From: a virus
Direction: 5' to 3' (one strand)
Length of the DNA stretch: 42,783 nucleotides
IMG/VR virus record: IMGVR_UViG_3300009159_000120
Coordinates: 1-42,783 of that record
Shown in pieces: positions 21,170 to 35,520 of the stretch. Under the pieces are notes generated by a model. It was not told the DNA's origin. It ran no database searches and saw nothing but the letters and a program-made list of their open reading frames with translations. The first letter of the stretch is position 1, and the number at the start of each line of letters is the position of its first letter. The position numbers and the translations under genes are program-made.

Positions 21170-22663
21170 ATGCCTTTTAGAAATGCCCTAACCAGTGGTC
21201 TGATAGCAGCTAGATTTGGAGGATTACCTCCACCTTCGGTTACCAGCATATCTGGTACCATAAACGTAGACACAACAACAACGGTCACGGTCAACGGAGC
21301 TAGATTCTTATCACTGGCAACAGTGTCTGTAAGCGGAGCCGCAACCGGCGGCGTTCCCAGAGCAATGGCCACTACCTATGTTAACAGCACCCAATTGACT
21401 TTTTCCACAAATGCCACCGCAGTACCGTTTACTGCCAGTCAATCATTTGATATAATAGTTGCCAACGGTCCGGGAGCTAGCTCAACACTGTCAGCCGCAG
21501 GCACAATAGACCCAGATCCCACATGGTCAACAGCCGCTGGATTGGTAGGAACCACTGCTACTATGTCAGCTGCGAGTTATGCTCACACAGCCACAGATCC
21601 TACCGGAGTCACGGTATCTTTAGTCAGTGGAGCGATCCCCGCAGGTATGAGCCTGGCCTCCAACGGCACTGTGTCTGGAACCATAAACTGGGCCACACTT
21701 AGTGCTGCCTGGCAGCAAGATTTCAGTTATACATTAAGAGCCACAGCCACTGACGGACTAGGTTCAGCAGATAGAGCATTTAGCATACGTGCTACCAACA
21801 GTTATTATTATAGACAGGTCTATGCCTTTGGCTATGTGGTTGGTGGATATTCAGCGTCAACACCTTGGTACGCTGCGCACAGAGTCACGGTGTCTAGCGA
21901 TGCTTATTTCACAATCGGAGATAGGTTAAACAACCGTGCAGGATACGTTGGCGGTGCGTGGAGTGACACAGGACTATGGGTGTACGGAACTGGTGACGGT
22001 CTAGGAGCATATTCTGCCTATTCGGGATTTAACATGTTCAGTGAATCCGGATTCAACAACGGAGACATGGGACGCACCAAAGACGACACAGGCGTGATGA
22101 GCAATCACGGTGCTTACACAGGTGTTGTGGCCAACTATGTAATTGGTGGTAGCGAAGGTACCAACGTTAGACATAACATGTCAAACAACACCATCTCATA
22201 TGTTAACGCCAGCGGACTCAGCTCATCCAATTACGGAAACGCTTGGGAAAGCGACTCATACGGTTATGATGCATTTGGTGCTTATCGTATTAGATTTTCC
22301 GACGAAGTGACCTCAAGTATGCCCAGCGGTAGACCACCGGGCAGTGATCAAGCACATAGTAAATCGATGGGTACTAAACAAGGTTTTGCGTTTGTCGAAG
22401 ATGGCGGCAACAGTTCTTATACCTACACTAGACACAATTATGCAGCAGAAACTCTACAGAACAACTGGACCAACAAACCTCAAACCTGCGGAGAAACTAA
22501 TTTTGTAGAAGGACAAGATTGGGGATACGGCATGGGCTGTTGCGGTTCTGCTTGTCAAAACAACTGGTTCTGGAAACAGAATTATACCAACACTTCGAGT
22601 ACATGGCTAGGCGGTTCAGATCGCGCTATGTCATCTGGTGACTCGGGATCTCGCAGATCTTAA
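21170..22663 (+). CDS. Adhesin with Ig-like domains and a Gly/Tyr-rich receptor-type C-terminus
   Basis: A 497-residue protein. Residues about 20-115 look like an IPT/TIG-type Ig domain (PPSVTSISGTINVDTTTTVT...). Residues about 125-205 look like a He_PIG-type Ig domain ('SGAIPAGMSLASNGTVSGTI'). The remaining 290 residues are Gly/Ser/Tyr/Trp-rich and open with 'YAFGYVVGGYS'. They include a 'DWGYGMGCCGSACQNNWFW' stretch near residue 450 and a 'S.G..GS' tail. This resembles host-range tail proteins of marine T4-like phages that contain GQDWGY segments. The three clustered Cys (CCGSAC) are unusual in a fibre. It is likely a tail-tip or short-fibre adhesin. Confidence 0.75.
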   Translation: MPFRNALTSGLIAARFGGLPPPSVTSISGTINVDTTTTVTVNGARFLSLATVSVSGAATGGVPRAMATTYVNSTQLTFSTNATAVPFTASQSFDIIVANGPGASSTLSAAGTIDPDPTWSTAAGLVGTTATMSAASYAHTATDPTGVTVSLVSGAIPAGMSLASNGTVSGTINWATLSAAWQQDFSYTLRATATDGLGSADRAFSIRATNSYYYRQVYAFGYVVGGYSASTPWYAAHRVTVSSDAYFTIGDRLNNRAGYVGGAWSDTGLWVYGTGDGLGAYSAYSGFNMFSESGFNNGDMGRTKDDTGVMSNHGAYTGVVANYVIGGSEGTNVRHNMSNNTISYVNASGLSSSNYGNAWESDSYGYDAFGAYRIRFSDEVTSSMPSGRPPGSDQAHSKSMGTKQGFAFVEDGGNSSYTYTRHNYAAETLQNNWTNKPQTCGETNFVEGQDWGYGMGCCGSACQNNWFWKQNYTNTSSTWLGGSDRAMSSGDSGSRRS

Positions 22664-22671
22664 GGAAAATC

Positions 22672-23358
22672 ATGTACGTAATCTATAAAAAATATCACGA
22701 ATCAGTAGATCCAAGACACACAGTCATAGACAATTTCGCGGGGTTCACGCTGGTCCAGGTCAGCAACCTCGATTGGATAAACTGGGAACAAGGTCGTCCT
22801 AGAATAATTCCGGAAGATGTTGCTCGTTGGTATAATTATTTTGGTCGTCCAGAATTCCGAGGATATCAAGATAGGGACACAGGCGAAATACATGCTTCAA
22901 AATATCAGCTTAAAGATCCGTTAAAGATCACAAGACCATATACCGAAGAAGAAGCTGCCGGAGTATTAGAATACATGAAAACAGTGATGCGTGTGCGTGT
23001 CGAAGATATTTTTTACCAACGCTATCTAGAGCTTCAAACACACATAAACGCTTTTGAAATGAGCACATGGCCTCAACAACTAAAAGAAGCCGAAGAAGGC
23101 CGTGGCATACTCATTGAAGAAATTGCCAAGGCACGGGGAATCACTGTTTCTATTCTAGCAGATAAAATCAAAAGAAGTGCCGCAGAATATCATGCAAACG
23201 TTGGAAATCTCCTAGGCCGACAACAAAGACATATTAGAGATATTGACGCTTGCTCTTCTATAGAAGAAGCAGCTGAAATAGCCGACCTTAAATTTGGAAT
23301 AGCCAAATATCCACAATTTGGTACAAGTAGACATGGTGACTTTGTAGTCAGAATCTAA
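22672..23358 (+). CDS. Probable fibre accessory or assembly protein
   Basis: A 228-residue protein directly after the adhesin (8-base gap, AAGGAAA ribosome site). The N-terminal half is a mixed fold with many Trp and Tyr (LDWINWEQGRPRIIPEDVARWYNYFGRPE). The C-terminal half, from about residue 95, is helical and charged, with 'RYLELQTHINAFEMSTWPQQ' at about 117-136 followed by a likely coiled coil. Small proteins after fibre genes are often chaperones or assembly factors, and the 'E.ST...Q..EA' helix is of that sort, but I cannot tie it to a specific family. Confidence 0.6.
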   Translation: MYVIYKKYHESVDPRHTVIDNFAGFTLVQVSNLDWINWEQGRPRIIPEDVARWYNYFGRPEFRGYQDRDTGEIHASKYQLKDPLKITRPYTEEEAAGVLEYMKTVMRVRVEDIFYQRYLELQTHINAFEMSTWPQQLKEAEEGRGILIEEIAKARGITVSILADKIKRSAAEYHANVGNLLGRQQRHIRDIDACSSIEEAAEIADLKFGIAKYPQFGTSRHGDFVVRI

Positions 23359-23424: not shown

Positions 23425-24315
23425 ATGCCCAGTCATATTGTACCTTTAGATAGAATAAAAAGATCACTAGCGCCAGAAGAATTTAACATTGATTATGAAA
23501 ATCTGTTAGATTTAAAAGTCGTCTCTAAAGAAGATGCCGACATAGTGAAATTTTTATCGTCTGTAATCACCCCTTATTCAACTTTTCAATCTAGATCTTT
23601 TGTTATAAACACAGAAGTTACAGATCATAGGAAACTCCAACAAGTTGGTCTAGAAATCAAAGCCAGGGTTCTAGGACTAGCCGACAGTACTTATAAAATT
23701 AAAAAAGCCGAAATAGAAGTAAAAAAAATACAAAGAGCACTTGAACTAGAAGAAGATGAGTTAGAAAAAGAGTTAATGGAATTAGAAATTAAAAAGATAA
23801 GTTTTGATGTAGCGCAGACTAAATTATTGCAAGAGCAAAGTAATTACGAAATCAATAATTTTTTAGAAATAGCAAAAGAGATAGCCCCAGAAAACACATT
23901 AGAAACGATTAAAAGTTACAAGGACAACTGGGAAGAAAAAGAAGAAGAATATTGGATCAAAAGATTTGGTAAACAAGCGATGTATGATGTGTTACTTTCA
24001 GGAAAAATTCAGTCTGGAAATCTTGATTCTATCATAGGCATGCCACTAGAAGCACAACAAAAAGTAATTTCGTATGCGTTGTTGCAGACCCAACGTATGG
24101 AACAAGGCATTTCTGAACTAGGAGAAGCAGTAAGGCATGTGTTGACAGCATCTCCTAACGATAGGCAACCCTATCAACTGCCGGATATTTCCGGTATAGT
24201 TGGAAACTATGGAGGAAGCAGTACATTGTCCACACAACAGTTAGCGACAAATAGGACACAAATTAATGAAAAAATTACCTACAACCCCACCACCGCCAGG
24301 TTACATATCAGGTGA
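23425..24315 (+). CDS. Coiled-coil protein of unknown function
   Basis: A 296-residue protein with a long charged coiled coil at about residues 72-150 (heptads such as KKAEIEVKKIQRALELEEDE). A helical domain follows (about 165-240: EEEYWIKRFGKQAMYDVLLS), then a low-complexity tail. There is no signal peptide or membrane segment. It has its own late promoter and a GGAG ribosome site. Its end overlaps the zinc-ribbon gene by 50 bases. It is probably a structural or scaffold-type protein made late, but no family is recognised. Confidence 0.65.
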   Translation: MPSHIVPLDRIKRSLAPEEFNIDYENLLDLKVVSKEDADIVKFLSSVITPYSTFQSRSFVINTEVTDHRKLQQVGLEIKARVLGLADSTYKIKKAEIEVKKIQRALELEEDELEKELMELEIKKISFDVAQTKLLQEQSNYEINNFLEIAKEIAPENTLETIKSYKDNWEEKEEEYWIKRFGKQAMYDVLLSGKIQSGNLDSIIGMPLEAQQKVISYALLQTQRMEQGISELGEAVRHVLTASPNDRQPYQLPDISGIVGNYGGSSTLSTQQLATNRTQINEKITYNPTTARLHIR

Positions 24316-24550
24316 TTGGGAATTTAGACTTCACCGAGTTGAAATTTGTTATAACTGCGAACACTTTTTCTTAGATGATCAGGAAGACAAATCTGCTGAT
24401 CGTATATTCTTTAGGACACACTGTGGAGAATGTGCTTGTTCTAGTTACATGATGTCTGCAGATCGACACAGGCAAAGATGTCCGTTAAATAAATGGCCTG
24501 TTTGGTCTGATTGGGAAAAAAATCTAAAGGAAAATGATGAAAATATTTAG
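24266..24550 (+). CDS. Small zinc-ribbon protein, copy 1
   Basis: A 94-residue protein with the spaced cysteines C28-x2-C31, C53-x2-C56-x-C58 and C72-P-x2-K-W. The same set and spacing style appears in the minus-strand protein at 28408, so the two are paralogues. It starts inside the end of the coiled-coil gene (50-base overlap) and ends inside the start of the fusion gene at 24534, which suggests coupled translation of the three genes. It probably binds zinc or an iron-sulphur centre. Its partner and role are unknown, although its position next to the tailoring enzymes suggests an accessory role. Confidence 0.7.
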   Translation: MKKLPTTPPPPGYISGDWEFRLHRVEICYNCEHFFLDDQEDKSADRIFFRTHCGECACSSYMMSADRHRQRCPLNKWPVWSDWEKNLKENDENI

Positions 24551-26228
24551 TATCCCACTGAATCCTAAATTATCTGAACAAGAATTTAAACAATTTTACG
24601 ATTTTTGTAGCACACATAAAGATTATATCTATGATATATATTTTACCTGCAGAATTCCCCCATTTGTAACTGACGCAATGGGAGACGTGTTTGACAGTAA
24701 ACAGGCTGTTGAGTTAATTAATAATGCTTTAATTTTACAAACAAATTTAGGAATACCGCTCTCAGCAACATTTAATAATATAGAGGTTCCACCCACACAA
24801 GAATTCTTAGAGACGTGGATAAAATATTTCAGACCTTTATATGATCAAGGAATACGAACAGTTACACTGCCACATACTATCTGGATGTTGTCCGGAAGAA
24901 TACAGAAAGAATATCCGGAATTATTTGTAAAAAATACTATATTAAGAAATGTACAGAGAGCTAACGAATTAGTTAAATTAGTAGAAGCAGGATTTAGTTA
25001 TATAAATCTTGACAGAGATCTAATGAGAGATCGAGAAAGTTTATTAGAAATCAAGAAAGCCAAAGAATACTGTATAGAAAAGTATGGAAGAGAAATAAAA
25101 GTATCTTTATTGGCCAACGAAGGATGTTGGGGTAATTGTTCTGTACAAGATGAACACTTTCAATATAACAATACTAGAGTAGAAGGCAAGCATCCTACTT
25201 ATTTCATGACACCATTGTCAAAAGTCACGTGCCCATCTTGGGATAGAGACGATCCGGGGCAATCATTAAAGAAAGCAGATTTTCCGCCTTGGAAAACAGA
25301 TTGGTTAGAATTTGTCAATGAGTTAGGTATAGATGTTTTTAAAATGCATGGTAGAGAACATACACCTAGAATGTTTGAAACTATGAAAATCATAGAAAAT
25401 TTTGCCAACGATAAAGAAATATTATTTGATGGATTTGAATCATACGTTGACGATATGGCTATAGAAGGATCCCCTATTAACGCATGGCGGAAAAAAATAA
25501 AAACATGTAAATTTGATTGCTGGGATTGTAATTATTGTAATCAAGTAGTGATAAGCAAATCTAAAAATAGATTTATAGAAAAAATAAACGAATCTCTTAG
25601 AAAGTCTGAAAACTTAGAATCTAAATTAAGTGAAGAAATACTCAAAATAAACGGATTAACATCAAACAAAGTTAAGCACTTGTTGAATAATCTATTAGAA
25701 ATGCAAGATTCTCGATATTTAGAAGTAGGAGTTTATCAAGGTGCAATTTTTTCTTCGGCACTATATAAGAATGAGCATGCATTTTGTGTAGGTATAGATA
25801 ATTTCGAAAACGACGGCATTAAGCCAATGAGAGACATGGAAGAATGGGTATCTGTACCGGGACCTACTAAATCTTTACTATATCAAAATATTTCAAAAAC
25901 AGGAAATAAAAATTTTAAAATCATAGATAAAAGTATAGATGAAGTAAAACAACCCGACTTACCATTCAAGGCATCGATAGTCTTTTATGACGGTGATCAT
26001 TCTTTAGAAAGTCACGAAATGTTCTTAACAAAAGTAATAGAAGTTTGTGATGATATTTTTATTTTTATAGTAGATGATTGGAATTGGCTTCAAGTCGCTC
26101 ATGGAACAAAACAATGTATAAGCGGTCTAAACTTAAAAATAATTTTTGAGAAAGAGATTTTCACCACCGGTGAAGATCCAAACGATTATTGGAACGGCTT
26201 AGGAATATATGTATTGGAGAAAAAATGA
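24534..26228 (+). CDS. Cys-rich TIM-barrel-like protein fused to a class I methyltransferase
   Basis: A 564-residue two-part protein. Residues 1-340 look like an alpha/beta barrel of the U32-peptidase type (a guess from layout). The motif NEGC198WGNC202 is followed by C233 and a CxxxCxxCxxC cluster (C325, C329, C332, C335), so an iron-sulphur centre is plausible. Residues about 390-564 are a class I SAM methyltransferase: motif I 'RYLEVGVYQGA' (394-404), acidic strand ends 'GIDNF' and 'FYDGDHSLESH' (484-494), and 'DDWNW' (514-518). The two start codons (24534, 24537) are adjacent; AAAGGA favours the second. The stop overlaps the halogenase start (ATGA). Some U32-family proteins are oxygen-independent hydroxylases, which would fit the neighbours. 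Substrate unknown. Confidence 0.65.
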   Translation: MMKIFSIPLNPKLSEQEFKQFYDFCSTHKDYIYDIYFTCRIPPFVTDAMGDVFDSKQAVELINNALILQTNLGIPLSATFNNIEVPPTQEFLETWIKYFRPLYDQGIRTVTLPHTIWMLSGRIQKEYPELFVKNTILRNVQRANELVKLVEAGFSYINLDRDLMRDRESLLEIKKAKEYCIEKYGREIKVSLLANEGCWGNCSVQDEHFQYNNTRVEGKHPTYFMTPLSKVTCPSWDRDDPGQSLKKADFPPWKTDWLEFVNELGIDVFKMHGREHTPRMFETMKIIENFANDKEILFDGFESYVDDMAIEGSPINAWRKKIKTCKFDCWDCNYCNQVVISKSKNRFIEKINESLRKSENLESKLSEEILKINGLTSNKVKHLLNNLLEMQDSRYLEVGVYQGAIFSSALYKNEHAFCVGIDNFENDGIKPMRDMEEWVSVPGPTKSLLYQNISKTGNKNFKIIDKSIDEVKQPDLPFKASIVFYDGDHSLESHEMFLTKVIEVCDDIFIFIVDDWNWLQVAHGTKQCISGLNLKIIFEKEIFTTGEDPNDYWNGLGIYVLEKK

Positions 26229-27751
26229 ACAGAATTATTAATAACATTATCATCGTAGGAGGAGGTTCAGCAGGATGGATGACTGCCGCTCACCTTAGTA
26301 ATAATTTACCTCCGGCAGTTAAGATATCAATGGTCGAATCGACAACGATAGGAACCATAGGAGTAGGCGAAGGTACCCAGCCATACACCACAGCATTTTT
26401 ATTAGAATGCGGTTTACAACCAGAAGATTGGATGTCTCTCGCTGAAGCTACACTTAAATTAGGTGTTGAGTTAACCGGCTGGGCTGACGAACCTGCGTTT
26501 GTTGACAACGATTCAGTAGCCACCGCAGTTTTAGGTAGAGATACATTTTTAGCAAAATACGTATTATCTCAAAAGATCACTAAAAAAGAATACAATGATT
26601 GGCTACCCGCATACAGATTTGCCAAGGCTAATAAATCTACTAAACTGGATGATCATAAATTAGATTTTAATCTAGGTATGTATGATTTCACTTGGGATGC
26701 TGTGCATTTTAGAGCAGATGCACTTATTGAAGCACTTAAAAAGAAATGTAAAAGAAAAATAAAACACTATGATGATGAAATAACAGAAGTGTTTTCTGAC
26801 GATACTGGAATAACTGGTTTAATGTCTAAAGAAAACGGATTGTTACATGCAGATTTATACATAGACTGTACTGGTTTTAAATCTTTGTTGCTAGAACAGA
26901 CTTTAAAAGAACCGTTTATATCTTTTGAAGACATATTATTGTGTAATAGAGCAGTTGCCATCCCAACGGAATATAAAAATAAAACAACAGAGATGCATCC
27001 CTACACTAAAGCCATTGCAGAACCCTGCGGCTGGCGCTGGACTATTCCTACATTTAATAGAATAGGAAACGGTTATGTATATTGCGATAAATTTATCAGC
27101 CCAGAAAACGCTGAATTGTATCTAAGATCTGTTTTAGATGAATGGTCTGCTCCAGCCAATCATATAAAGATGAAAACAGGAACACACAGAAACATCGCAG
27201 TAAAAAATGTTTATGCTACTGGGCTAGCGGCAGCGTTTGTAGAACCGTTAGAAGCTACAGGTATTACATTTACTACCAAAGGCATACAAGCATTAACTGA
27301 AGTAATTTTGCAAAATGGTGGTGCTTACAACGCCGAATCGGCGTTGATGCTCAGCGACAAATATAATCTTATGGTGAAAGAGATAGTAGATTTTGTACTA
27401 GTACATTATTTAATGTCCACTAAGGATGATACTGATTTTTGGAAAGCAGCAAAAATGATACAACCTCCTGCATCTACTAGAACAGCGTTAAATCATTTTA
27501 TACCACAACCTCCTGATAAAATTGTAAACCCGGGAATTTATAGCATGTTTCACCCAGGGCAGTGGTTTTCGTTGTTGTATTCATTCGGTGCATACGACCA
27601 ATTTGTCGATGAGTACACCTGTGAAGAGTCGGTTAAAAAATACGGAAAGATGATGTGGGATTCGCACAAATTTAGAATAGATCAATGTTTGGAAGTATTC
27701 CCTAATCATGCTGACTATATGGAAAAATGGTATACAGGAAAAGATAGATAA
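26225..27751 (+). CDS. Flavin-dependent halogenase (tryptophan halogenase family)
   Basis: A 508-residue protein. The N-terminal FAD motif is GGGSAGW (residues 12-18). The second signature is GWRWTIP (269-275), matching the WxWxIP motif that distinguishes flavin halogenases from monooxygenases. The catalytic lysine is in place: Lys78 in 'ATLKLGVELTGW', equivalent to Lys79 of PrnA. Residues 'ATGLAAAFVEPLEATGI' near 340 fit the family's FAD/chloride loop. The chosen ATG at 26225 has GGAG 8 bases upstream and overlaps the previous stop; the longer frame from 26189 lies inside the upstream gene. No flavin reductase is visible, so reduced FAD would come from the host. A related phage enzyme, VirX1 of cyanophage Syn10, is known to halogenate. 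The substrate here is unknown. Confidence 0.93.
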   Translation: MNRIINNIIIVGGGSAGWMTAAHLSNNLPPAVKISMVESTTIGTIGVGEGTQPYTTAFLLECGLQPEDWMSLAEATLKLGVELTGWADEPAFVDNDSVATAVLGRDTFLAKYVLSQKITKKEYNDWLPAYRFAKANKSTKLDDHKLDFNLGMYDFTWDAVHFRADALIEALKKKCKRKIKHYDDEITEVFSDDTGITGLMSKENGLLHADLYIDCTGFKSLLLEQTLKEPFISFEDILLCNRAVAIPTEYKNKTTEMHPYTKAIAEPCGWRWTIPTFNRIGNGYVYCDKFISPENAELYLRSVLDEWSAPANHIKMKTGTHRNIAVKNVYATGLAAAFVEPLEATGITFTTKGIQALTEVILQNGGAYNAESALMLSDKYNLMVKEIVDFVLVHYLMSTKDDTDFWKAAKMIQPPASTRTALNHFIPQPPDKIVNPGIYSMFHPGQWFSLLYSFGAYDQFVDEYTCEESVKKYGKMMWDSHKFRIDQCLEVFPNHADYMEKWYTGKDR

Positions 27752-27755
27752 TATT

Positions 27756-28268
27756 ATGGATACCTTTAGAATAATTGGATCTTTCGATCAAGATCATTTG
27801 GAAAGCTGGATTTTAGAACAAAAAAGAAAATTATCTAGCCCATGGAAAATTGCAGGCCATTCTTTTATAATTTTTCAGAAAGACAATCCACCATACATTT
27901 ATAAATCTTTAGCGAACGTCCACGTAGACTCTGTAAAAGATTTATTAACAAAATTTCCTGATAGTTTTATGCTGTGTATCGTGTCGGAAGTTTTTATAGC
28001 TTATTCCCGGCCTAAAACTGTAGAAAAACTATTTCCTATCGGTGAGCTAAATGGAAACAACGAGCTTATGAATATTCATATAAACAACGATAATGAAGGT
28101 TGGGAATTTTCTATCACAGGAAGCATCATGACTAATAGACATTCGTTTTCAACAGAAAAAATATTTTTAAACGAAAAAGATGTGTATCAAACAGATGATA
28201 ATATAAGATTAGATTTTGTAAACAAGAAAATTATCAGCAAGCTAATTGATTATGATCACGCTTCTTGA
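27756..28268 (+). CDS. Hypothetical protein of the halogenase operon
   Basis: A 170-residue protein starting five bases after the halogenase stop. The start at 27756 (MDTFRIIGSF) is preferred over the in-frame ATG at 27708, which lies inside the halogenase gene. It is a soluble, mixed alpha/beta protein with aromatic strands (SPWKIAGHSFIIFQ, EGWEFSITGSIM). No cysteines are clustered and no catalytic signature is recognised. Its place in a unit with the halogenase and the fusion protein suggests an accessory or substrate-handling role, which is inference only. Confidence 0.65.
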   Translation: MDTFRIIGSFDQDHLESWILEQKRKLSSPWKIAGHSFIIFQKDNPPYIYKSLANVHVDSVKDLLTKFPDSFMLCIVSEVFIAYSRPKTVEKLFPIGELNGNNELMNIHINNDNEGWEFSITGSIMTNRHSFSTEKIFLNEKDVYQTDDNIRLDFVNKKIISKLIDYDHAS

Positions 28269-28407
28269 AAATAATAAAGAATTTAATTATCAGATTTGGA
28301 ATAGTGATGTAATAACAAATCATCTCAATGAAATAATTGATGTGGCCTATAATTTTATAGGCGAAGATCATCCCTTAGATTATCAATTAATGCCCTTGAT
28401 ACTGTGA
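28252..28407 (+). CDS. Short ORF of 51 residues, uncertain
   Basis: An ATG at 28252 (MITLLENNKEF...) overlaps the end of the previous gene by 17 bases and runs to TGA at 28405-28407, next to the convergent stop of the minus-strand zinc ribbon. The product is acidic, contains one Trp and ends MPLIL. It could be a small protein, a decayed remnant of a longer gene, or noise. No ribosome site is evident. Confidence 0.35.
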   Translation: MITLLENNKEFNYQIWNSDVITNHLNEIIDVAYNFIGEDHPLDYQLMPLIL

Positions 28408-28626
28408 TTACCATTTCTTTATTGGGCAAGTAAAAATAGCAAATTTGGTTTTTAATGGCATATAGCAATGGCATTCTTTGCACATGTGTAGATCGCTGTA
28501 ATTTTCGCAGCTTCTACAAACGTCCAATCTTTGTTTGTGTTCTTCTTCGGAAACTACTAGTTTGTTCTTGATATTTTTAACTAAAGTTTCGGCCTGGCTG
28601 CCGAATCTTTCCTGTATCCAATTCAT
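28408..28626 (-). CDS. Small zinc-ribbon protein, copy 2
   Basis: A 72-residue minus-strand protein with C37-x2-C40, C49-x2-C52-x-C54 and C67-P-x2-K-W. The pattern matches the zinc ribbon at 24266, including the CPxxKW ending. The ATG at 28626 is supported by a perfect AGGAGG ten bases upstream and by a late-promoter-like AATAAATA further up; the longer in-frame start would have neither. The N-terminus is helical (MNWIQERFGSQAETLVKNI). It is convergent with the halogenase unit and divergent from the fibre at 28693. Probable metal binding; role unknown. Confidence 0.8.
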   Translation of the reverse strand: MNWIQERFGSQAETLVKNIKNKLVVSEEEHKQRLDVCRSCENYSDLHMCKECHCYMPLKTKFAIFTCPIKKW

Positions 28627-28636
28627 AATTAGTGTG

Positions 28637-28642
28637 CCTCCT
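28637..28642 (-). promoter_or_regulatory. Perfect Shine-Dalgarno (AGGAGG) for the minus-strand zinc ribbon
   Basis: The plus strand reads CCTCCT. The site decides the start at 28626 and is the strongest ribosome site in the window. Confidence 0.8.
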
Positions 28643-28646
28643 GATA

Positions 28647-28654
28647 TATTTATT
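28647..28654 (-). promoter_or_regulatory. T4-like late promoter, minus strand (AATAAATA)
   Basis: One mismatch to TATAAATA, reading toward the minus-strand zinc ribbon. It lies 12 bases from the plus-strand late promoter at 28667, forming a divergent pair. Confidence 0.55.
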
Positions 28655-28666
28655 TTAAAAAACAGT

Positions 28667-28674
28667 GATAAATA
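28667..28674 (+). promoter_or_regulatory. T4-like late promoter (GATAAATA)
   Basis: One mismatch to TATAAATA. The expected start is near 28680, leaving a short leader of about 13 bases that holds AGAGGA just before the ATG at 28693. Confidence 0.75.
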
Positions 28675-28692
28675 CAAGACTAGAGGAACATT

Positions 28693-31500
28693 ATGAGCTA
28701 TAATAACAGACCTATCTTTAAAAGCGTTAGGATTCTTACAGAAGATCCTGAAATATTAGATAGAAAAACAGGTCTATCCGGTGAAATTTACGTGGATCCC
28801 ACACACTATACCTTAAAGGTATTTGACGGTGCTACGCAAGGCGGCATAGAGATCGCCAGATCCGATCTAGCCAATGTTTCAACTACCGCAATCAAATCTA
28901 AAGTTACAGAAGCAAATGTAGCCACAGTTAGCTATACAGTCACAATAGCCGGTCCGGTAGCCCCCGATACCGGAAACAAATATAGAATCGATGGTGTTTA
29001 TAAACCAGCGTTATCCTTGGTTGTGGGTTATACTTATATTTTCAATCAAACAGATTTGACCAATGTTTACTACCCCAACGCTAACGGAACTACCCAAAAT
29101 AGACACCCTTTAAATTTTTCAGCAGACAATCTCAGCGGAGTACCAGGTGGTGGTACTGCTTACACCACTAATGTAGTTTATAAATTAGATGGAAGCCCTG
29201 TTACATATGCTGTGTATAACAGTGTGGCCTTTGTTACCGCAACTTCCAGAACAGTAGAAATACAAGTAACTAGCTCAACTCCTAGTACTTTATATTACTG
29301 GTGCTATCAACATCTTGCAATGGGTAATTCTATTGCAACATCCGATCCTGGATCGGGTTCGGGATCAAGTGATAGATTGGTCAACGGAAACCTAGAAGTG
29401 GTGCTAGAAGATGACGGCACTATTACAATACCTACCGGTGGAAGGATCGGCAACGTACAAGGACAGGAATCGGCATTTGCATTTAACGGAGTAGATTTAT
29501 ATGCTCCGACCACAGTTGACTATGTGCAATTAAATTACAACAACGAATTTTTCTCCTACGTAGAAAGAAAAGCCGCTAGTAATTTTGGTTATTTTGTAGC
29601 GGATCTAGGTGCTGGTAATAATTGGGTGTTGGATGGTGAAACTAAAACTACTTCATTTCCTGCCTTTACATTTCCAGGCACCGACGGCGCAGCTAATCAA
29701 TACTTACAAACCAACGGTTCTGGAATACTCTCTTGGGTCAGTGTACCCAATGGATTTGCCACGATAGCAGTAGCAGGGCAATCTAATGTGGCAGCCGATT
29801 CAGCCACAGACACCTTGACATTAGCTGCCAGCACAGGAATTGCAATCACTACCAATGCCGGAACTGACACAGTAACCATAGCTTCTACGCTTAATACTTT
29901 TTCTACTGTTCGTGTAGCTGGTCAAACTGATATAGAAGCAGATGTTGCACAAGACGTTCTTACAATCGTAGGTAACGGAATCAACGTTACTACATCAGCT
30001 AACACATTGACCTTAACAACAACCAGCAACGTGACCGCAGCGTTTACAACCATGGCGGTAGCTGGACAGAGCAGTGTTGTTGCAGACGGCGAAGCAGATA
30101 CAGTGACGTTGGTAGCTGGACCTAATATAACTATATCTACATCTGCTGGAACAGATACTATCACAATTGGAGCAAACGTAGGCGGGTCGTCATCAGTACA
30201 GTCTATTACTTTAAACAATCCTATAGTAATCGCAACAACAGCAGCTCATAATCTTGCCAATGGTCAACAGATTACTATCACTGATGTAGTGGGCACTACA
30301 GAATTAAATGGTAATAGCTATTTTGCGGACGTTGTATCTTCGACACAGTTTAGATTGTACAGCGACACCGGATTAACCACCACAGTAAACGGTACTGCGG
30401 GATTTACAGCATATGTCAGCGGAGGCTCTGTAGCAGGTACAGCAGGTAGCAGTGGCGTAAGTACAGCTAGTCAATATGAATTGTCCTATTACTCTCAGAC
30501 TGGCAATGTTATAGCAGGAACTACAGGTTTATCTTGGAATGGTAGTAGACTGTCAGTCACCGGTAACATATCAGTGAATGGTGAATCACCTATATACGAA
30601 AGTACTAGAAAACGCACACAGTTCTTTGTGGCTGCTGATGACTCTACAATCAGGACTGTGAGTGAAGACGAAAGTATTAAATTTATAGGAAGTGGTGGAA
30701 TAACAACTGCGTCTGACGCCGAGGGTAATATAACCATCACTGGCAGCGATACAACATTAGCCTTCCAGACTATTGCCGTGGCAGGCCAAACCAGTGTTGT
30801 GGCGGATTCTGCAGCAGACACACTTACTTTGGTTGCAGGCACCGGCGTGGCTATCACCACTAATGATTCTACCGATACTATTACGATCACTAACAGTAGT
30901 CCAAACGTTGCACAAAATGTATTTTCAACTGTGAATTTCAACGGTACAGATTATATTGCCGACACTACAACAGATACATTAAGAGTCAATGCTGGAAGAT
31001 TCATCTCGATGACTCATGATGCTGCCAATGATATTGTAGAGTTAGGAGTATCTAACAGTATGAACTGGGCTGATTTATCTAGCATAGGTACTTGGATATA
31101 TCTAGGCGATGGAATGACCATCGACAAGGTGGCTTTTCAAGCCATTACTAGACTGCACGTAACAAACGTTGGACAGATTTATTATTTCGACACTGACGGA
31201 CAGTATACTGGAGCTAATCCTACTATATACGCAATATCCGGAACAACCATAGCCTTTAATCTCAACGTCAATGGCCACCCATTTTTAATTCAAAACAGCG
31301 GCGGCACAAATTACAACACCGGTCTAGTGCATGTATTTTATGATGGAACTGTAACTACTGGTTCAGCCGCACAAGGAAAGATATATGGTACGCTGTATTG
31401 GAAAATACCTGCTAACATATCAGGAACATATCGATATCAATGCTCGGCTCACGCACTAATGCAAGGTAACATTGTAATCAAAGACATATCAACAATATAA
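28693..31500 (+). CDS. Fibre protein with two cupredoxin-like domains and beta repeats
   Basis: A 935-residue virion protein. Residues about 75-215 form a cupredoxin-like domain with the ligand pattern His138 ... Cys204-x2-His207-x2-Met210. Residues about 785-935 hold a second with His862 ... Cys917-x2-His920-x2-Met923. Both fit the type-1 copper set. Between them are five repeats of a 45-residue unit, F-x-T-(I/V/M)-x-V-A-G-Q-(T/S)-x-V ... A-D-x-x-x-D-T-L-T, at about 355, 403, 449, 692 and 742. These are split by a 'NPIVIATTAAHNLANGQQIT' domain of the E1-FCCH-like type (about 503-580). The N-terminus 'SGEIYVDPTHYTLKVFDGAT' is a common phage-fibre start. AGAGGA precedes the ATG. The domains could bind copper or be used only as a fold. 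Confidence 0.85.
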   Translation: MSYNNRPIFKSVRILTEDPEILDRKTGLSGEIYVDPTHYTLKVFDGATQGGIEIARSDLANVSTTAIKSKVTEANVATVSYTVTIAGPVAPDTGNKYRIDGVYKPALSLVVGYTYIFNQTDLTNVYYPNANGTTQNRHPLNFSADNLSGVPGGGTAYTTNVVYKLDGSPVTYAVYNSVAFVTATSRTVEIQVTSSTPSTLYYWCYQHLAMGNSIATSDPGSGSGSSDRLVNGNLEVVLEDDGTITIPTGGRIGNVQGQESAFAFNGVDLYAPTTVDYVQLNYNNEFFSYVERKAASNFGYFVADLGAGNNWVLDGETKTTSFPAFTFPGTDGAANQYLQTNGSGILSWVSVPNGFATIAVAGQSNVAADSATDTLTLAASTGIAITTNAGTDTVTIASTLNTFSTVRVAGQTDIEADVAQDVLTIVGNGINVTTSANTLTLTTTSNVTAAFTTMAVAGQSSVVADGEADTVTLVAGPNITISTSAGTDTITIGANVGGSSSVQSITLNNPIVIATTAAHNLANGQQITITDVVGTTELNGNSYFADVVSSTQFRLYSDTGLTTTVNGTAGFTAYVSGGSVAGTAGSSGVSTASQYELSYYSQTGNVIAGTTGLSWNGSRLSVTGNISVNGESPIYESTRKRTQFFVAADDSTIRTVSEDESIKFIGSGGITTASDAEGNITITGSDTTLAFQTIAVAGQTSVVADSAADTLTLVAGTGVAITTNDSTDTITITNSSPNVAQNVFSTVNFNGTDYIADTTTDTLRVNAGRFISMTHDAANDIVELGVSNSMNWADLSSIGTWIYLGDGMTIDKVAFQAITRLHVTNVGQIYYFDTDGQYTGANPTIYAISGTTIAFNLNVNGHPFLIQNSGGTNYNTGLVHVFYDGTVTTGSAAQGKIYGTLYWKIPANISGTYRYQCSAHALMQGNIVIKDISTI

Positions 31501-31545
31501 TTAATTTGTTGTTTTTGTAGATTGTAATCCTATCGGTCTGTAACA

Positions 31546-32187
31546 TTAATTATGTTTTAAATCATACTGTATATCAAACGCCATATTGATTCTAGGTCTC
31601 ACCGAAGGGTTGGGCTCTACAAAATGTGCGAGATATGAAGGAAACATCAAAAGATCCCCGTCGTTGGGATTATATCTTGCTGATCCAAAATATGGCCAAC
31701 AGTAATTCATACTTTTATAAAGATAACTCTGAGACATGAATTCGATATATCCTGTATCCATGGCTTGAAAATACAACGTCCCACTTAGATAATTTCCCGA
31801 ATGTGTGTGTACAGGATTGCCACCATTGATCCCATTGACATTGAACCATGCACTGATTTTAGGATGATCTATGTCATATCTACTTATTTCATCAGTAGGC
31901 TGGCCGAACGACTGTGGGCGTATTAGAGTTTGGTCATAAACAGTGTGATAACGAGAAATCACATCCTGTAAAATTTCGTTGATCTCATCAGTGAGCCCTG
32001 TCTCGGATAAATGCGGATTACCTCTCCAACAGTTCGGAGAGGTATTTTCTGAAGTAAGGTTTTGAGACTTGTACGCTAATACTTGTCTTGATATTTCTCG
32101 GCAAAGAGACACATCTAATACCTGCGTCGCATGCAGTATATTAGTCATTTCTACGGTATTCACATAAATGTTATCTGTTTGATTCAC
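31546..32187 (-). CDS. 2OG-Fe(II) oxygenase (TIGR02466-like), HxH type
   Basis: A 213-residue protein with the C-terminal double-stranded beta-helix of 2-oxoglutarate/iron oxygenases: His127-x-His129 in 'NPVHTHSGNYLSGTLYF', the distal ligand His188 in 'FPSYLAHFVEPN', and Arg199 in 'RPRINMAFDI' for binding 2OG. The HxH pair and the following LSG resemble the TIGR02466 family. The start is a GTG at 32187, overlapping the upstream gene's stop by 17 bases, with only a weak ribosome site. The internal Met14 is an alternative. It is the only oxygenase of the six on the minus strand. Substrate unknown. Confidence 0.85.
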   Translation of the reverse strand: MNQTDNIYVNTVEMTNILHATQVLDVSLCREISRQVLAYKSQNLTSENTSPNCWRGNPHLSETGLTDEINEILQDVISRYHTVYDQTLIRPQSFGQPTDEISRYDIDHPKISAWFNVNGINGGNPVHTHSGNYLSGTLYFQAMDTGYIEFMSQSYLYKSMNYCWPYFGSARYNPNDGDLLMFPSYLAHFVEPNPSVRPRINMAFDIQYDLKHN

Positions 32188-32443
32188 CGTGATCTTTGCA
32201 GAGGTTATTTAATTTTTTTCTTAAAAGTGAAATATTTTCTTTGGACCGTTCTAACCCAGTAGGTTCTTTAAAGGTACTAGGGTCTATATGAAGCGTATCA
32301 ATTTTCTTTACTTCAAAAATTAGTTTATTGATCATTGTGTCAATTTCATTTTTTAGACCTTGGTCGCTAATATTTTTTTGCACTTCTGTGAACTTTTTAA
32401 GTTCATTTTGGAAACTCAAACTTTTTTCGATAGACGGAAGCAT
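32171..32443 (-). CDS. Short coiled-coil protein
   Basis: A 90-residue protein that is almost all helix and highly charged (Lys/Glu), with heptad-like spacing from residue 10 to 50 and again near the C-terminus (RSKENISLLRKKLNNL). A GAGGA ribosome site lies eight bases upstream of the ATG. It is followed by the oxygenase at 31546 with a 17-base overlap, so the two are probably co-translated. No domain is recognised. It could be a partner or adaptor for the oxygenase. Confidence 0.6.
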   Translation of the reverse strand: MLPSIEKSLSFQNELKKFTEVQKNISDQGLKNEIDTMINKLIFEVKKIDTLHIDPSTFKEPTGLERSKENISLLRKKLNNLCKDHGESNR

Positions 32444-32486
32444 TTTAAAATCCTCATATAGTATAATTATGTAAAAAAATTATAAC

Positions 32487-32508
32487 CCTAAATAAATGTG
32501 GGTAAATA
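32487..32508 (+). promoter_or_regulatory. Two late-promoter-like octamers (CCTAAATA and GGTAAATA)
   Basis: Both lie in the 71-base AT-rich gap between divergent genes. CCTAAATA (32487-32494) would give a leader of about 15 bases. GGTAAATA (32501-32508) would start transcription at or next to the ATG at 32515. A 7-bp inverted repeat (TATAATT / AATTATA, 32462-32484) stands just upstream. Confidence 0.5.
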
Positions 32509-32514
32509 GAGTTT

Positions 32515-33069
32515 ATGCTTTTAGAGAAAAGAAATTTTTTAAACACAACAGAGTTTCAAAATTCGTTTGGTTTTCTTAACGGCGACATGGCATTCCCTTG
32601 GTTCTACAGTAAAAACACTGCGTATGGAATGGCCGAAGACAATCATCAATTATGGGATTTTTCCTTTAGCCATGTAGTAGCAGTAGACGGTCGGGGGGAT
32701 AGTCCTCTTACAGAAAAATCAATGCTACTAGCTGAGAATATTTGCAGAAGTTTTGATCTTGGATCGTTGGAAGTAAAAAGGATACGACTAGGAATGATGA
32801 CTAAAACTCCGACGAATTTTACTCATAATCCTCATGTAGACTATCCCTTTCCTCATCTCACAGCTTTGTTTTATTTCACTACCTGCAATGGCCCAACAGT
32901 ATTGTATGATCAAAAATTTCCAAATGATACTTTTTTAAAAACCCAACAGCTGATACATTCTGAAGAAAATAAAGTAGTGATATTTGATGGATTGCAATAT
33001 CATGCCAGTACTACCCAAACAGATAAAAAACAAAGAATAGTAATGAATGTAAATTTCAAAGTAAAATAA
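32515..33069 (+). CDS. 2OG-Fe(II) oxygenase, HxD type
   Basis: A 184-residue protein with the prolyl-4-hydroxylase-like core: His107-x-Asp109 in 'HNPHVDYPFPHLTALFYF', distal His163 in 'FDGLQYHASTTQ', and Arg174 in 'KKQRIVMNVNF'. The metal and 2OG ligands are complete, so it should be active. It resembles the oxygenase at 33643 (both have 'FDG..YHAS' and 'IV.N.'), a pair of diverged copies. It is the first gene of the oxygenase operon and starts right after a late-promoter-like octamer. The ribosome site is poor. Substrate unknown. Confidence 0.88.
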   Translation: MLLEKRNFLNTTEFQNSFGFLNGDMAFPWFYSKNTAYGMAEDNHQLWDFSFSHVVAVDGRGDSPLTEKSMLLAENICRSFDLGSLEVKRIRLGMMTKTPTNFTHNPHVDYPFPHLTALFYFTTCNGPTVLYDQKFPNDTFLKTQQLIHSEENKVVIFDGLQYHASTTQTDKKQRIVMNVNFKVK

Positions 33070-33070
33070 T

Positions 33071-33640
33071 ATGTACGCCATTGAATCCAATGATATTGTA
33101 AAAACATTTAATTATACCAGTATGATTAGTGCCGAAGATAATCAAACCGTAATGAAAATAATAGAAGAATTAGTTAGAAAGGGTAACTATTTTACCAACA
33201 GTCCTAGATATCAAACAAATGTAAACCTATTCAAGTTAGATGAATCAATATGGTTAAAATATCGATTAAGCTTTCTTTTTAGTGTGTTCATGTATCTAGG
33301 TCGCGAAGTAAAAGTATCAGAGATGATGGCTTGGAGTTATATGACTAATCTAGATACTGAAGAAAATCGAGACTTGTATTGGCATCATCATAACAATAAT
33401 CCATATAAGAAAAAAATGAGCGGAATTTTTTATTTGCATATACCCGATGATGTTAAACAATTAGAATATGCAGGAACAGAATTTGCTCCCGACGGAGTTG
33501 AGGGACAAAATAAATATTTTGTTAAACCTCAACAATTTAGCTGGGTTGTATTTCCTGGAGATCTTTGGCATAGACCCGGCATCATCCAAAGTAGTAAATA
33601 CAGATTCATTATTGCAGCAGACATGGAGATTACAGAGTAA
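33071..33640 (+). CDS. 2OG-Fe(II) oxygenase with triple-His motif
   Basis: A 189-residue protein. A 'YWHHHNNNPYKKKMSGIFYLHIP' region gives His105, His106 and His107 as candidate metal ligands, followed by the SGIFY strand. The distal ligand is His167 in 'FPGDLWHRPG' and Arg178 sits in 'KYRFIIAADME'. The fold looks like the 2OG-Fe(II) group used for phage oxygenases with an all-His metal site, but which of the three His residues bind is not clear. It starts two bases after the previous stop. The insert between SGIFY and the distal His (EFAPDGVEGQNKYFVKP) is not seen in the others. Confidence 0.8.
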   Translation: MYAIESNDIVKTFNYTSMISAEDNQTVMKIIEELVRKGNYFTNSPRYQTNVNLFKLDESIWLKYRLSFLFSVFMYLGREVKVSEMMAWSYMTNLDTEENRDLYWHHHNNNPYKKKMSGIFYLHIPDDVKQLEYAGTEFAPDGVEGQNKYFVKPQQFSWVVFPGDLWHRPGIIQSSKYRFIIAADMEITE

Positions 33641-33642
33641 AA

Positions 33643-34245
33643 ATGATCAATGACATAATTATTATCGATGACTTTATTTCTGAAACCTATCAAGATAAGA
33701 TAGCTCAGGACACATTATACAATCCAGATTTTCCTTGGTATTTTGCAGCCAGCATTACTAAAAAAATACCCCTAGACCAAAAAATGGAACACGATTCGCA
33801 CGGGTTCGGCCATATGTTTTATAAGAAACAAACGGGGTCGATCAGTGCCATAACTAATCTGCTTCTACCCTTGGCGTATCAGGCCTGTGATAAAATAAAT
33901 TTTAAATTTAATGAGCTATATTGGGGAAGAGTATTTTTAACATTTCCTAACGTACAAGATATTTTTCAAAAAAAATATAATCTACTGCACGTAGATGCTG
34001 ACATTCCGCATTTAGTCTGTCTGTATTATGTCAATGATGCAGATGGCGACACTGTTATAACTACTAATGCAACATATCCGCAATTCAGTCAAGATGAGGT
34101 CAACAGCCTTATTCCTCCAGCCCAGATCACTCACAGGGTCACTCCAAAAAAAGGCCGGGTCGTGCTGTTTGACGGCAAGTTTTATCATGCCAGCACTAAT
34201 CCCACTAAAGACAGAAGATGTATTGTCAACTTTGATATTATTTAA
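33643..34245 (+). CDS. 2OG-Fe(II) oxygenase, HxD type
   Basis: A 200-residue protein with His116-x-Asp118 in 'LLHVDADIPHLVCLYYVND', distal His182 in 'FDGKFYHASTNP' and Arg192 in 'DRRCIVNFDI'. It is a sister of the oxygenase at 32515. It begins two bases after the previous stop, and its own stop overlaps the next start (TAATG). The N-terminus (INDIIIIDDFISETYQDKI) is the usual opening of this family. Complete ligands suggest activity; substrate unknown. Confidence 0.88.
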   Translation: MINDIIIIDDFISETYQDKIAQDTLYNPDFPWYFAASITKKIPLDQKMEHDSHGFGHMFYKKQTGSISAITNLLLPLAYQACDKINFKFNELYWGRVFLTFPNVQDIFQKKYNLLHVDADIPHLVCLYYVNDADGDTVITTNATYPQFSQDEVNSLIPPAQITHRVTPKKGRVVLFDGKFYHASTNPTKDRRCIVNFDII

Positions 34246-34793
34246 TGCAACTGCCTATATATCTAACATCAATAGACTGGGGTCGAAATCAAAATCATAT
34301 CACAGAATATATTTTGCAACGGCATGCTTCTTACCCGTATCATATTCATCCCGGTGATGCTAGTTTGCCTTTAGAAGATACTATAACCAACGATTTAGAT
34401 CATCTGTACACGCTATTTTTAGAACATGCAACTAAATGGCTTGGACCTTTAGAAATAAAAAAAAATAATCGTAGAAAAATTTGGGCTTACGTGAGTCGAT
34501 CTAATGAATTTTTTCGAGGGGTACACGATCACAGTCACACATGTGAAATCAACGCAGTCTATTATCATAAAATACCCGTATCAACATCTCCAATTGCAAA
34601 TTGTTTAGGCATATACAATTCAAATAAAGAACTGAGATTTTGGTACAAACCCAAAGAAGGCGATTTAATAATTTATCCAGGCTGGTTAAAACACGAACCC
34701 ATCCCGCCAGATACCGACGAATATCGAATAGCACTTAATATGGAAATTCAGTGTCAATTAATTTGGCCAAGAAATTTAGAGAATTTCTTATGA
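34245..34793 (+). CDS. 2OG-Fe(II) oxygenase, HxH type (divergent)
   Basis: A 182-residue protein. A 'VHDHSHTCEINAVYYHKIP' stretch supplies His96-x-His98 (with His94 before it). The distal ligand is His150 in 'YPGWLKHEPIPP' and Arg161 sits in 'EYRIALNMEI'. It is more divergent than its neighbours but keeps the order HxH - NAVYY - GDLIIYP - H - R. Start and stop both overlap neighbours (TAATG upstream, ATGA downstream), so the genes from 33643 to 34790 are probably translated as a coupled set. Confidence 0.82.
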   Translation: MQLPIYLTSIDWGRNQNHITEYILQRHASYPYHIHPGDASLPLEDTITNDLDHLYTLFLEHATKWLGPLEIKKNNRRKIWAYVSRSNEFFRGVHDHSHTCEINAVYYHKIPVSTSPIANCLGIYNSNKELRFWYKPKEGDLIIYPGWLKHEPIPPDTDEYRIALNMEIQCQLIWPRNLENFL

Positions 34794-34801
34794 ATATGTT
34801 G
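34768..34801 (+). repeat. 34-base direct repeat, copy 1
   Basis: Identical to 35487-35520 except for two A/G differences. It contains a near-perfect stem (AAGAAATTT - AGA - GAATTTCTT) and ends in ATGAATATGTTG. Here the repeat forms the end of one oxygenase gene and the first codons of the next. In copy 2 the corresponding bases are a late promoter. Confidence 0.85.
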
Positions 34802-35437
34802 CCTGGAAATATCCATCCTATTTTTTCTACTCCGATCCTTACAAATAATATAAGAAGACCACTTGCCAGCGAAGAGATGCTTACTTGTAAAAACGGAGAT
34901 TACTATGACGATAATGCATCGTCAGCGGAAACTCCTACCCATATAGCATACACCAAATCTAACAATGTCTTAGAAAATCCTGCACTTACAGATATTAAGA
35001 AGTTTATCTTTGATAATATCAATCAATATTTGTTTGACTTATTAAAGATAAACGATCGTATAAACTTTTATGTTTCTAGATCTTGGTTTGTAGAATCAAA
35101 CAAAGGTGATTTTAGCCGGCGACATAGTCATCCAAACAGTGTGTTGTCCGGAGTTTTTTATTTTAAAGCACCTGCTAACTGCGGTAATTTGATATTGTAC
35201 GATAATAGAGCATCATTATTTGGATCATTGCATTTCAGCTACGGAGAATCATCGCCAGCTAATAGTACATTAATTAGCATACCGCCTGCCGAAGGAAATT
35301 TAATTTTATTTCCTTCAAACATGATGCACGAAGTAGGAATCAATTTATCAAATGAGACAAGATATTCATTATCGTTTGATGTATGGTTTACTGGACAAAT
35401 TGGCCATAGTACGTCTATGACTATTTTAAGTGTTTAA
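34790..35437 (+). CDS. 2OG-Fe(II) oxygenase (TIGR02466-like), HxH type
   Basis: A 215-residue protein and the clearest TIGR02466-like member: His112-x-His114 in 'SRRHSHPNSVLSGVFYFKAP', distal His180 in 'FPSNMMHEVG' and Arg191 in 'ETRYSLSFDVWF'. The N-terminus 'IHPIFSTPILTNNI' is the typical family start. The ATG at 34790 overlaps the previous stop (ATGA) and is preferred over the in-frame ATG at 34751, which lies deep inside the previous gene. It is the last gene of the five-gene oxygenase run. Substrate unknown. Confidence 0.9.
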   Translation: MNMLPGNIHPIFSTPILTNNIRRPLASEEMLTCKNGDYYDDNASSAETPTHIAYTKSNNVLENPALTDIKKFIFDNINQYLFDLLKINDRINFYVSRSWFVESNKGDFSRRHSHPNSVLSGVFYFKAPANCGNLILYDNRASLFGSLHFSYGESSPANSTLISIPPAEGNLILFPSNMMHEVGINLSNETRYSLSFDVWFTGQIGHSTSMTILSV

Positions 35438-35486
35438 AATTTAATAATTTTTTATAACTTTCTAGTTAAATTAAATATTTTAATGT

Positions 35487-35520
35487 CAAGAAATTTAGAA
35501 AATTTCTTATAAATATGTTG
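35487..35520 (+). repeat. 34-base direct repeat, copy 2, containing a hairpin
   Basis: The second copy of the element at 34768-34801, located in the gap after the oxygenase operon. It has a perfect 9-bp stem (AAGAAATTT / AAATTTCTT, loop AGA), immediately followed by TATAAATA. The two copies lie 719 bases apart. Confidence 0.85.
35508..35515 (+). promoter_or_regulatory. T4 late promoter, perfect core (TATAAATA)
   Basis: An exact match to the T4 late core, at the 3' edge of the hairpin in the repeat and followed by TGTTGGGAG. It would drive the gene at 35531, whose ribosome site (GGGAG) lies 7 bases before the ATG. Confidence 0.8.

Follow-up and report, generated by a model that had tools for sequence, protein, structure and literature searches.

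Gene content of the window and its enzyme island

The window, meaning the whole stretch of DNA that was analysed, spans 42.8 kb of a virus record and carries many tail-fibre and baseplate genes. Within it lies an island of halogenase, oxygenase and methyltransferase genes, which a preliminary description had placed between fibre genes; fibre genes indeed flank the island on both sides, and they also interrupt it. The island comprises two modules, a tight adhesin operon with the order F-T-K-C-U-H-P, followed by a fibre gene and six 2OG genes. The features are as follows:

21170..22663, + strand: F, phrog_1417 fibre/adhesin of 497 aa, first gene of the conserved operon and proposed substrate
22672..23358, + strand: T, probable tail-fibre assembly chaperone (phrog_1604 match)
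23425..24315, + strand: K, phrog_1409, helical/coiled-coil-rich by sequence, strictly co-occurring with U
24266..24550, + strand: C, small Cys-rich protein with the look of a metal-binding ribbon, found in the U-H-P clade
24534..26228, + strand: U, phrog_1458, U32-like TIM barrel (predicted Fe-S) plus class I methyltransferase
26225..27751, + strand: H, complete flavin-dependent halogenase of 508 aa, in ATGA overlap with the U stop
27756..28268, + strand: P, 170 aa, directly 3' of H in the clade of this phage
28693..31500, + strand: fibre/baseplate-connector-like protein (phrog_677, phrog_708), start of the second, exchangeable module
31546..32187, - strand: O1, 2OG-type oxygenase (PF13759, HxH...H)
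32171..32443, - strand: small protein before O1, conserved in the relatives of 95% identity
32515..33069, + strand: O2, 2OG-type oxygenase (phrog_274, HxD...H)
33071..33640, + strand: O3, 2OG-type oxygenase (PF13759-like, HxH...H)
33643..34245, + strand: O4, 2OG-type oxygenase (phrog_274/phrog_61, HxD...H)
34245..34793, + strand: O5, 2OG-type oxygenase (PF13759, HxH...H)
34751..35437, + strand: O6, 2OG-type oxygenase (PF13759, HxH...H), with no counterpart in the related contigs L002 and L003
35833..36873, + strand: D, DUF401-type membrane protein (PF04165, 1.2e-9), often just 3' of U, O or H in the cassette

Thirty D-type ORFs were found among the fetched loci, and D adjoins U in cyanophage S-H25. 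The neck protein (40897-41655) was best matched by jumbo T4-like phages (44% for PA5oct-type Pseudomonas phages and 42% for Agrobacterium phage Atu_ph07) and grouped with them to the exclusion of cyanophages, which makes the earlier label of a marine T4-like phage doubtful. The nearest isolate matches of U, in contrast, were cyanophage proteins at approximately 45%, and the tail-tip cassette is therefore common to distant phage groups. In pelagimyophages and cyanomyophages, the corresponding genome region is a hypervariable host-recognition cluster (PMC7029224).

The AlphaFold model of F (pLDDT 80.5) showed all-beta N-terminal domains and a C-terminal six-bladed Kelch-type propeller, and Foldseek comparison with Kelch domains gave E-values of 1e-11 to 1e-12, with TM scores to target of 0.76-0.80. 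Judged from this model, F is plausibly a tail-tip adhesin. The protein contains 5.4% Tyr, 2.4% Trp and 43% Ser+Gly+Asn+Thr. Halogenase loci and loci with a 2OG enzyme did not differ significantly in the Trp, Tyr, Phe, Cys or Pro content of F, although a difference might be expected if F were a specific target of halogenation, and aromatic content was dropped as a marker of halogenation. A collagen-like substrate for prolyl hydroxylation was set aside, as family searches reported no collagen family for the window proteins scanned. A TW..Q..EA-like motif, which we take to mark tail-fibre assembly chaperones, is present in 114 of 142 relatives of T, and this motif together with the gene position makes T a probable chaperone. 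P had no family match in Pfam, PHROGs or NCBIfam, and its candidacy as a flavin reductase was rejected after inspection by eye.

The barrel-methyltransferase, the halogenase and the oxygenases

The Cys-rich barrel-methyltransferase fusion of the preliminary description was confirmed. U matched phrog_1458 with an E-value of 2.8e-176, a family labelled in PHROGs only as of unknown function, and consists of an N-terminal barrel (approximately residues 1-345) and a Methyltransf_24-like C-terminal methyltransferase (approximately residues 375-564), with seven invariant Cys (C198, C202, C233, C325, C329, C332 and C335). Its structural model (pLDDT 83) showed a TIM barrel joined to a class I methyltransferase. 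The barrel aligned with the U32 structure 5d88 (TM score to target 0.67, E 8e-6), and small-molecule/catechol O-methyltransferases matched the methyltransferase half at least as well as RNA methyltransferase folds did. PF01136 gave no direct profile match with U or with any of 35 aligned members, U had no direct sequence match in the PDB, and profile-profile comparison of U with six U32 proteins gave a probability of 39%. Bridging bacterial proteins (L265-L269), from the phylum of a Desulfocapsa genome, matched the U barrel, those of the L265/L267 type at about 1e-6 to 1e-17. L265 and L269 scored 52 and 32 bits, respectively, against PF01136, both over the cut-off of 22.4, and matched the TrhP and UbiU models weakly (TrhP at 4.5e-7 for a bridging protein). 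The U barrel and the bridging proteins have NEGC...C, K..GR and CxxxCxxCxxC-like motifs in common. Given these bridging matches, motifs and its modelled fold, we place the U barrel in the U32 superfamily as a divergent representative, resembling the O2-independent hydroxylases TrhP and UbiU, and is predicted to bind an Fe-S cluster.

The surroundings of cellular homologues of the U barrel were also inspected. In a Desulfocapsa contig (L255), a U-like barrel has an RTX-repeat protein on one side and a type I secretion ABC transporter on the other, and in L254 a GLUG-repeat protein lies approximately 4 kb from the homologue. No adhesin link was found at the homologues in L295-L297, and most of the cellular homologues examined are not next to an adhesin. 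With one clear case (L255), these neighbours were not taken as proof of adhesin modification and are at most suggestive.

The complete flavin halogenase reported previously was likewise upheld. H matched Pfam Trp_halogenase PF04820 over residues 19-471 with an E-value of 1.7e-93 (314 bits against a cut-off of 21), and an alignment of 16 phage halogenases including H showed full or nearly full conservation of the GGGSAG(W) motif, the catalytic Lys, the W-x-W-x-I-P motif and the EPLE Glu. A start at 26189 was not borne out; the ATGA overlap with the preceding stop places the true start at 26225, and the numbering of Lys78 counts from this ATG. H scored higher against the bacterial tryptophan halogenases 5lv9 and 2wet (249 and 242 bits, respectively) than against VirX1 6qgm (202 bits). 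Tryptophan halogenases, its closest solved relatives by sequence, act on free tryptophan.

An iterated 2OG-oxygenase profile fitted exactly six window ORFs, in agreement with the six oxygenases first described. Of the metal ligands first described as intact in all six, the classical HxD...H iron motif is present in O2 and O4 only; O1, O3, O5 and O6 have HxH...H, and their ligand sets are at most putatively intact. The HxH...H state occurs in 322 of 738 aligned homologues and, as aligned, in the PF13759-type PDB entries 3bvc and 2rg4, and thus does not indicate decay. PF13759 matched O1, O5 and O6 over threshold and O3 below threshold. O2 and O4 matched phrog_274, together with phrog_81 or phrog_61, and reached Pfam families only below cut-off. 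The label of DNA endonuclease V, attached to phrog_274 in cyanophages, was rejected for O2 and O4, since the 2OG profile fits both and each has the HxD...H motif. Searching viral contigs with O6 returned no relatives.

Linkage to the adhesin operon and exchange of partner enzymes

Gene contexts were typed with per-gene profiles in 251 sequences, mostly loci fetched with halogenase, U and K as baits; many of these loci overlap or are closely related, and the counts given here are accordingly not independent. U nearly always closes an F-T-K-U or F-K-T-U run. It was present in all 153 loci having K, was located after K in 80 of 80 K-anchored loci, and had K within 3 kb in 136 of the 142 U genes with upstream room. 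Most loci have a 2OG gene after U, and others have a halogenase there. The U-H spacing was -63 to +3 nt in 27 of 27 adjacent pairs listed, a few of which represent overlapping loci; U-2OG pairs overlap or abut in most cases, with one additional gene between them in the remainder. Since U overlaps or abuts the start of its partner enzyme, the two are likely translationally coupled.

Phylogenetic analysis of 56 non-redundant U sequences revealed that the halogenase-partner state needs five changes on the tree, four of them forced by well-supported branches; the partner of U, 2OG enzyme or halogenase, has thus been swapped at least four to five times. In the halogenase tree, the U-linked sequences formed one supported clade of 22 rows, 17 of them adjacent to U and several of the remainder on short contigs, and a separate group of four. 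A 2OG gene was found within 5 kb of 115 of 139 non-redundant halogenases.

The gene orders of the island were seen again in many other contigs, and the gene set is therefore not a chance assembly. Sets resembling that of the window, with U, H, several 2OG genes and often a DUF401 membrane protein, occur in the divergent contigs L117, L118, L119, L125 and L128 (42-45% halogenase identity with H); the set F-K-T-U-H-O-D was found again in L118 and in part in the other four. The co-occurrence in relatives that the preliminary description regarded as support for a pathway thus exists, for the enzymes with one another and with fibre genes, and extends to U plus H in divergent lineages.

A single co-conserved pathway did not emerge, however, since the six 2OG genes proved separable. 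In relatives of approximately 60% identity (U approximately 65%), the tail-sheath stabiliser and neck genes come immediately after F-T-K-C-U-H-P; both the 2OG genes and the phrog_677/phrog_708 fibre gene are missing from this interval. In L002 and L003, which are 92-97% identical to the window, the 2OG block is kept, the O6 stretch is missing (window 34801-35487), an additional 425-bp stretch at window 28342 carries another 2OG gene, and a 1.4-kb gene for a radical SAM protein (PF04055) is present at window 31511-31542. Absence at 60% identity and variation among near-identical relatives together identify the 2OG genes as an exchangeable set.

Possible function and comparison with known systems

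With a confidence close to even, we propose that the locus is a fibre-linked tailoring cassette, in which the operon enzymes modify the co-made adhesin F and the second module is an exchanged hydroxylase add-on. F-T-K-C-U-H-P would be co-transcribed as a late operon, with the Kelch-propeller adhesin, the probable chaperone and the modifying enzymes made from one transcript, and F would be modified before its incorporation into the virion. Going by fold and family, U would be a hydroxylase-methylase, whose U32-like Fe-S barrel carries out the O2-free hydroxylation of a residue and whose fused methyltransferase methylates the hydroxylated product, and H would add halogen to aromatic side chains (Trp/Tyr) or to the activated ring. 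The genetic linkage points to F as the substrate. The second fibre gene and the six 2OG genes would form a separate, fast-exchanged hydroxylase add-on at the host-recognition locus, and the purpose may be altered host binding or adhesin stability. That the adhesin-enzyme block is kept and its end enzyme swapped in relatives suggests, short of proof, chemical decoration by the phage of the protein with which it recognises its host. Weighing against modification of F are its similar residue content at halogenase and 2OG loci, the position of most cellular barrel homologues away from adhesins, the closeness of H to halogenases of free tryptophan, the missing direct PF01136 match of U and the large halogenase/2OG arrays that occur without F-T-K-U. 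More tentatively, U and an interchangeable halogenase or 2OG enzyme may constitute a post-translational modification system for the receptor-binding protein, marking the Kelch adhesin with hydroxyl, methyl and halogen groups, in a cassette that moves between phage families.

A serious rival, though less probable, is a phage-encoded secondary-metabolite or capsule-decoration pathway, in which the halogenase, 2OG oxygenases and methyltransferase would build or modify a small molecule or surface polysaccharide and would adjoin fibre genes because both occupy a common hypervariable host-recognition region. H is closest to tryptophan halogenases, and large arrays of up to four halogenases and approximately ten 2OG genes exist without F-T-K-U; the hypervariable cluster is rich in glycosyltransferases (PMC7029224), and a metabolite or capsule pathway is the reading given to the halogenase/2OG/methylase cluster of S-SSM6a in the passage devoted to it by Iyer et al. 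2021 (PMC7824862). Among the window ORFs scanned by family searches, on the other hand, there was no recognisable scaffold-making enzyme (NRPS, PKS, glycosyltransferase or nucleotidyltransferase), and a metabolite pathway alone would predict neither the strict linkage of U to adhesin and chaperone nor its overlap with the start of the halogenase or 2OG gene.

The gain and loss of 2OG genes between 92-97%-identical relatives, and their absence between P and the neck genes at approximately 60% identity, would also fit unrelated auxiliary genes at a hypervariable insertion site, with the 2OG enzymes serving separately in DNA/RNA repair or control of the 2OG level and the halogenase as independent cargo; published proposals do put cyanophage 2OG proteins in DNA repair or nitrogen signalling. 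We regard this as improbable, as overlapping U-H and U-2OG pairs arise on separate branches and halogenases have 2OG genes nearby at the frequency given above (115 of 139). The 2OG genes also crowd within 9 kb of a halogenase in Syn9 (8 of 13) and S-CREM1 (8 of 10), a density reached by 7-8% of random positions per genome. Least probable by far is that U modifies RNA in the manner of RlhA or TrhP, hydroxylating and then methylating rRNA or tRNA to tune translation during infection, with its operon partner incidental. The nearest characterised U32 relatives do hydroxylate tRNA or 23S rRNA (PMC6599085; PMC6747719), a bridging protein matches TrhP, and the methyltransferase half has RNA methyltransferase folds among its structural matches; but small-molecule/catechol enzymes match that half equally well or better, U is bound to fibre genes in every K-anchored locus, and UbiU/UbiV extend U32 enzymes beyond RNA (PMC6747719).

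If the adhesin is indeed the target of the cassette, enzyme swapping would alter adhesin chemistry with the adhesin gene unchanged, host recognition would gain a chemical layer beyond sequence, and biotechnology would gain access to a class of enzymes that work on folded proteins. The purpose of 2OG oxygenases and halogenases in marine cyanophages is debated, with antibiotic, DNA repair, nitrogen signalling and capsule roles under discussion; 2OG signalling is the proposal of Sullivan et al. 2010, and the S-CREM1 paper, reporting ten 2OG genes and a halogenase, suggested host metabolism and antibiotic protection. The strict tie of U to a tail-adhesin operon, with an exchangeable halogenase or 2OG enzyme, offers a concrete and testable target, namely the adhesin.

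Individually, the enzymes resemble characterised ones. H has the whole fold and the catalytic residues of PyrH, Th-Hal, PrnA and VirX1, but differs in sitting in an operon with U and P. U shares with TrhP, RlhA and UbiU/UbiV the TIM-barrel fold, a conserved Cys cluster and, via L265/L269, the NEGC..C and K..GR motifs; it differs in the spacing of its seven invariant Cys, the fused methyltransferase, the phage fibre context and the lack of a direct Pfam match. UbiU and UbiV bind 4Fe-4S clusters and carry out O2-independent hydroxylation (PMC6747719).

The combination of enzymes, initially thought to be undescribed, has precedents. The cultured cyanophages Syn9, S-RIM44 and S-CREM1 (Kyanoviridae) have one or more halogenases followed by a run of 2OG genes just 3' of tail-fibre genes, but these stretches are without the F-T-K-U operon, their halogenases lie on other tree branches, and those of Syn9 and S-RIM44 are two in tandem; VirX1 is the characterised halogenase of Syn10, which is related to this group. 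As set out in the S-SSM6a passage of PMC7824862, that cluster, like the island, has a halogenase, several 2OG enzymes and methylases. It contains halogenase, 2OG and cupin enzymes and a HemK-like methylase and, unlike the island, carbamoyltransferases and sugar-related enzymes (PMC7824862, same passage). No carbamoyltransferase or sugar-nucleotide enzyme next to the halogenase was among the family matches of the window ORFs, and the passage itself mentions neither an adhesin operon nor a U32-like fusion.

A further counterpart is the F-T-K-U operon of T4-like cyanophages (for example Syn33 gp042-046 and ACG-2014j), which has the same gene order up to U and a U approximately 45% identical to that of the window, and differs in having a 2OG gene in place of the halogenase after U. 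The window has both hallmarks of this operon, the F-T-K-U order and a U stop overlapping the start of the next enzyme. In cyanophages the genes of this operon carry the labels 'sericin 1 precursor-like', 'minor coat protein' and 'DNA endonuclease V' or are given as hypothetical proteins. A search of open-licence papers found no account of the F-T-K-U operon, of U as a fusion of U32-like barrel and methyltransferase, or of the exchangeable partner of U. The cassette is real, recurrent and under-described: its parts and neighbours are of known kinds, and the adhesin-locked arrangement is a fresh variation on them, with modification of the adhesin as the leading candidate function.

Annotation of short phrog_274 proteins

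Short phrog_274 proteins are annotated as 'DNA endonuclease V' in cyanophage records (e.g., L029:13695-14195). These proteins match the iterated 2OG-oxygenase profile, and the phrog_274 members of the window contain the classical HxD...H iron motif, so the label appears to be wrong for the short cyanophage proteins.

Genes bordering the putative tailoring enzymes

Downstream of the putative tailoring enzymes, the window encodes two membrane-type products, followed by minus-strand virion genes:
35833-36873, DUF401-type membrane protein
36930-37481, small outer-membrane beta-barrel-like protein with an N-terminus resembling a signal peptide
37895-40869, minus strand, tail-sheath stabiliser and virion structural gene

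The DUF401-type protein may be part of the proposed tailoring cassette. In other contigs it often lies immediately 3' of genes for U (U32-like barrel-methyltransferase fusion), halogenase or 2OG oxygenases, and in cyanophage S-H25 it adjoins U. The beta-barrel-like product is bacterial in appearance and is encoded by a phage genome. The minus-strand pair is flanked by plus-strand fibre and neck genes, an arrangement kept in relatives.

Adjoining the oxygenase gene O1, the 92-97%-identical relatives carry an additional gene that is cleanly absent from the window at 31511-31542:
L003:15704-17122, minus strand, radical SAM protein
L002:5260-6678, radical SAM protein

Variation in cassette composition

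In phage contigs L007-L012, L020, L022, L023, L184, and L191, which lack the F-T-K-U adhesin operon, a single run of genes combines between two and four halogenases with as many as a dozen or so 2OG genes. Two U homologues retain the barrel with a strongly diverged methyltransferase half, and the halogenase still follows each immediately:
L056:9989-11545, U homologue
L057:7406-8962, U homologue

A contig from a Desulfocapsa MAG (L255:1-4316) also encodes a U-like barrel; the gene is flanked on one side by that of an RTX-repeat protein and on the other by that of a type I secretion ABC transporter, which has a peptidase C39 domain.
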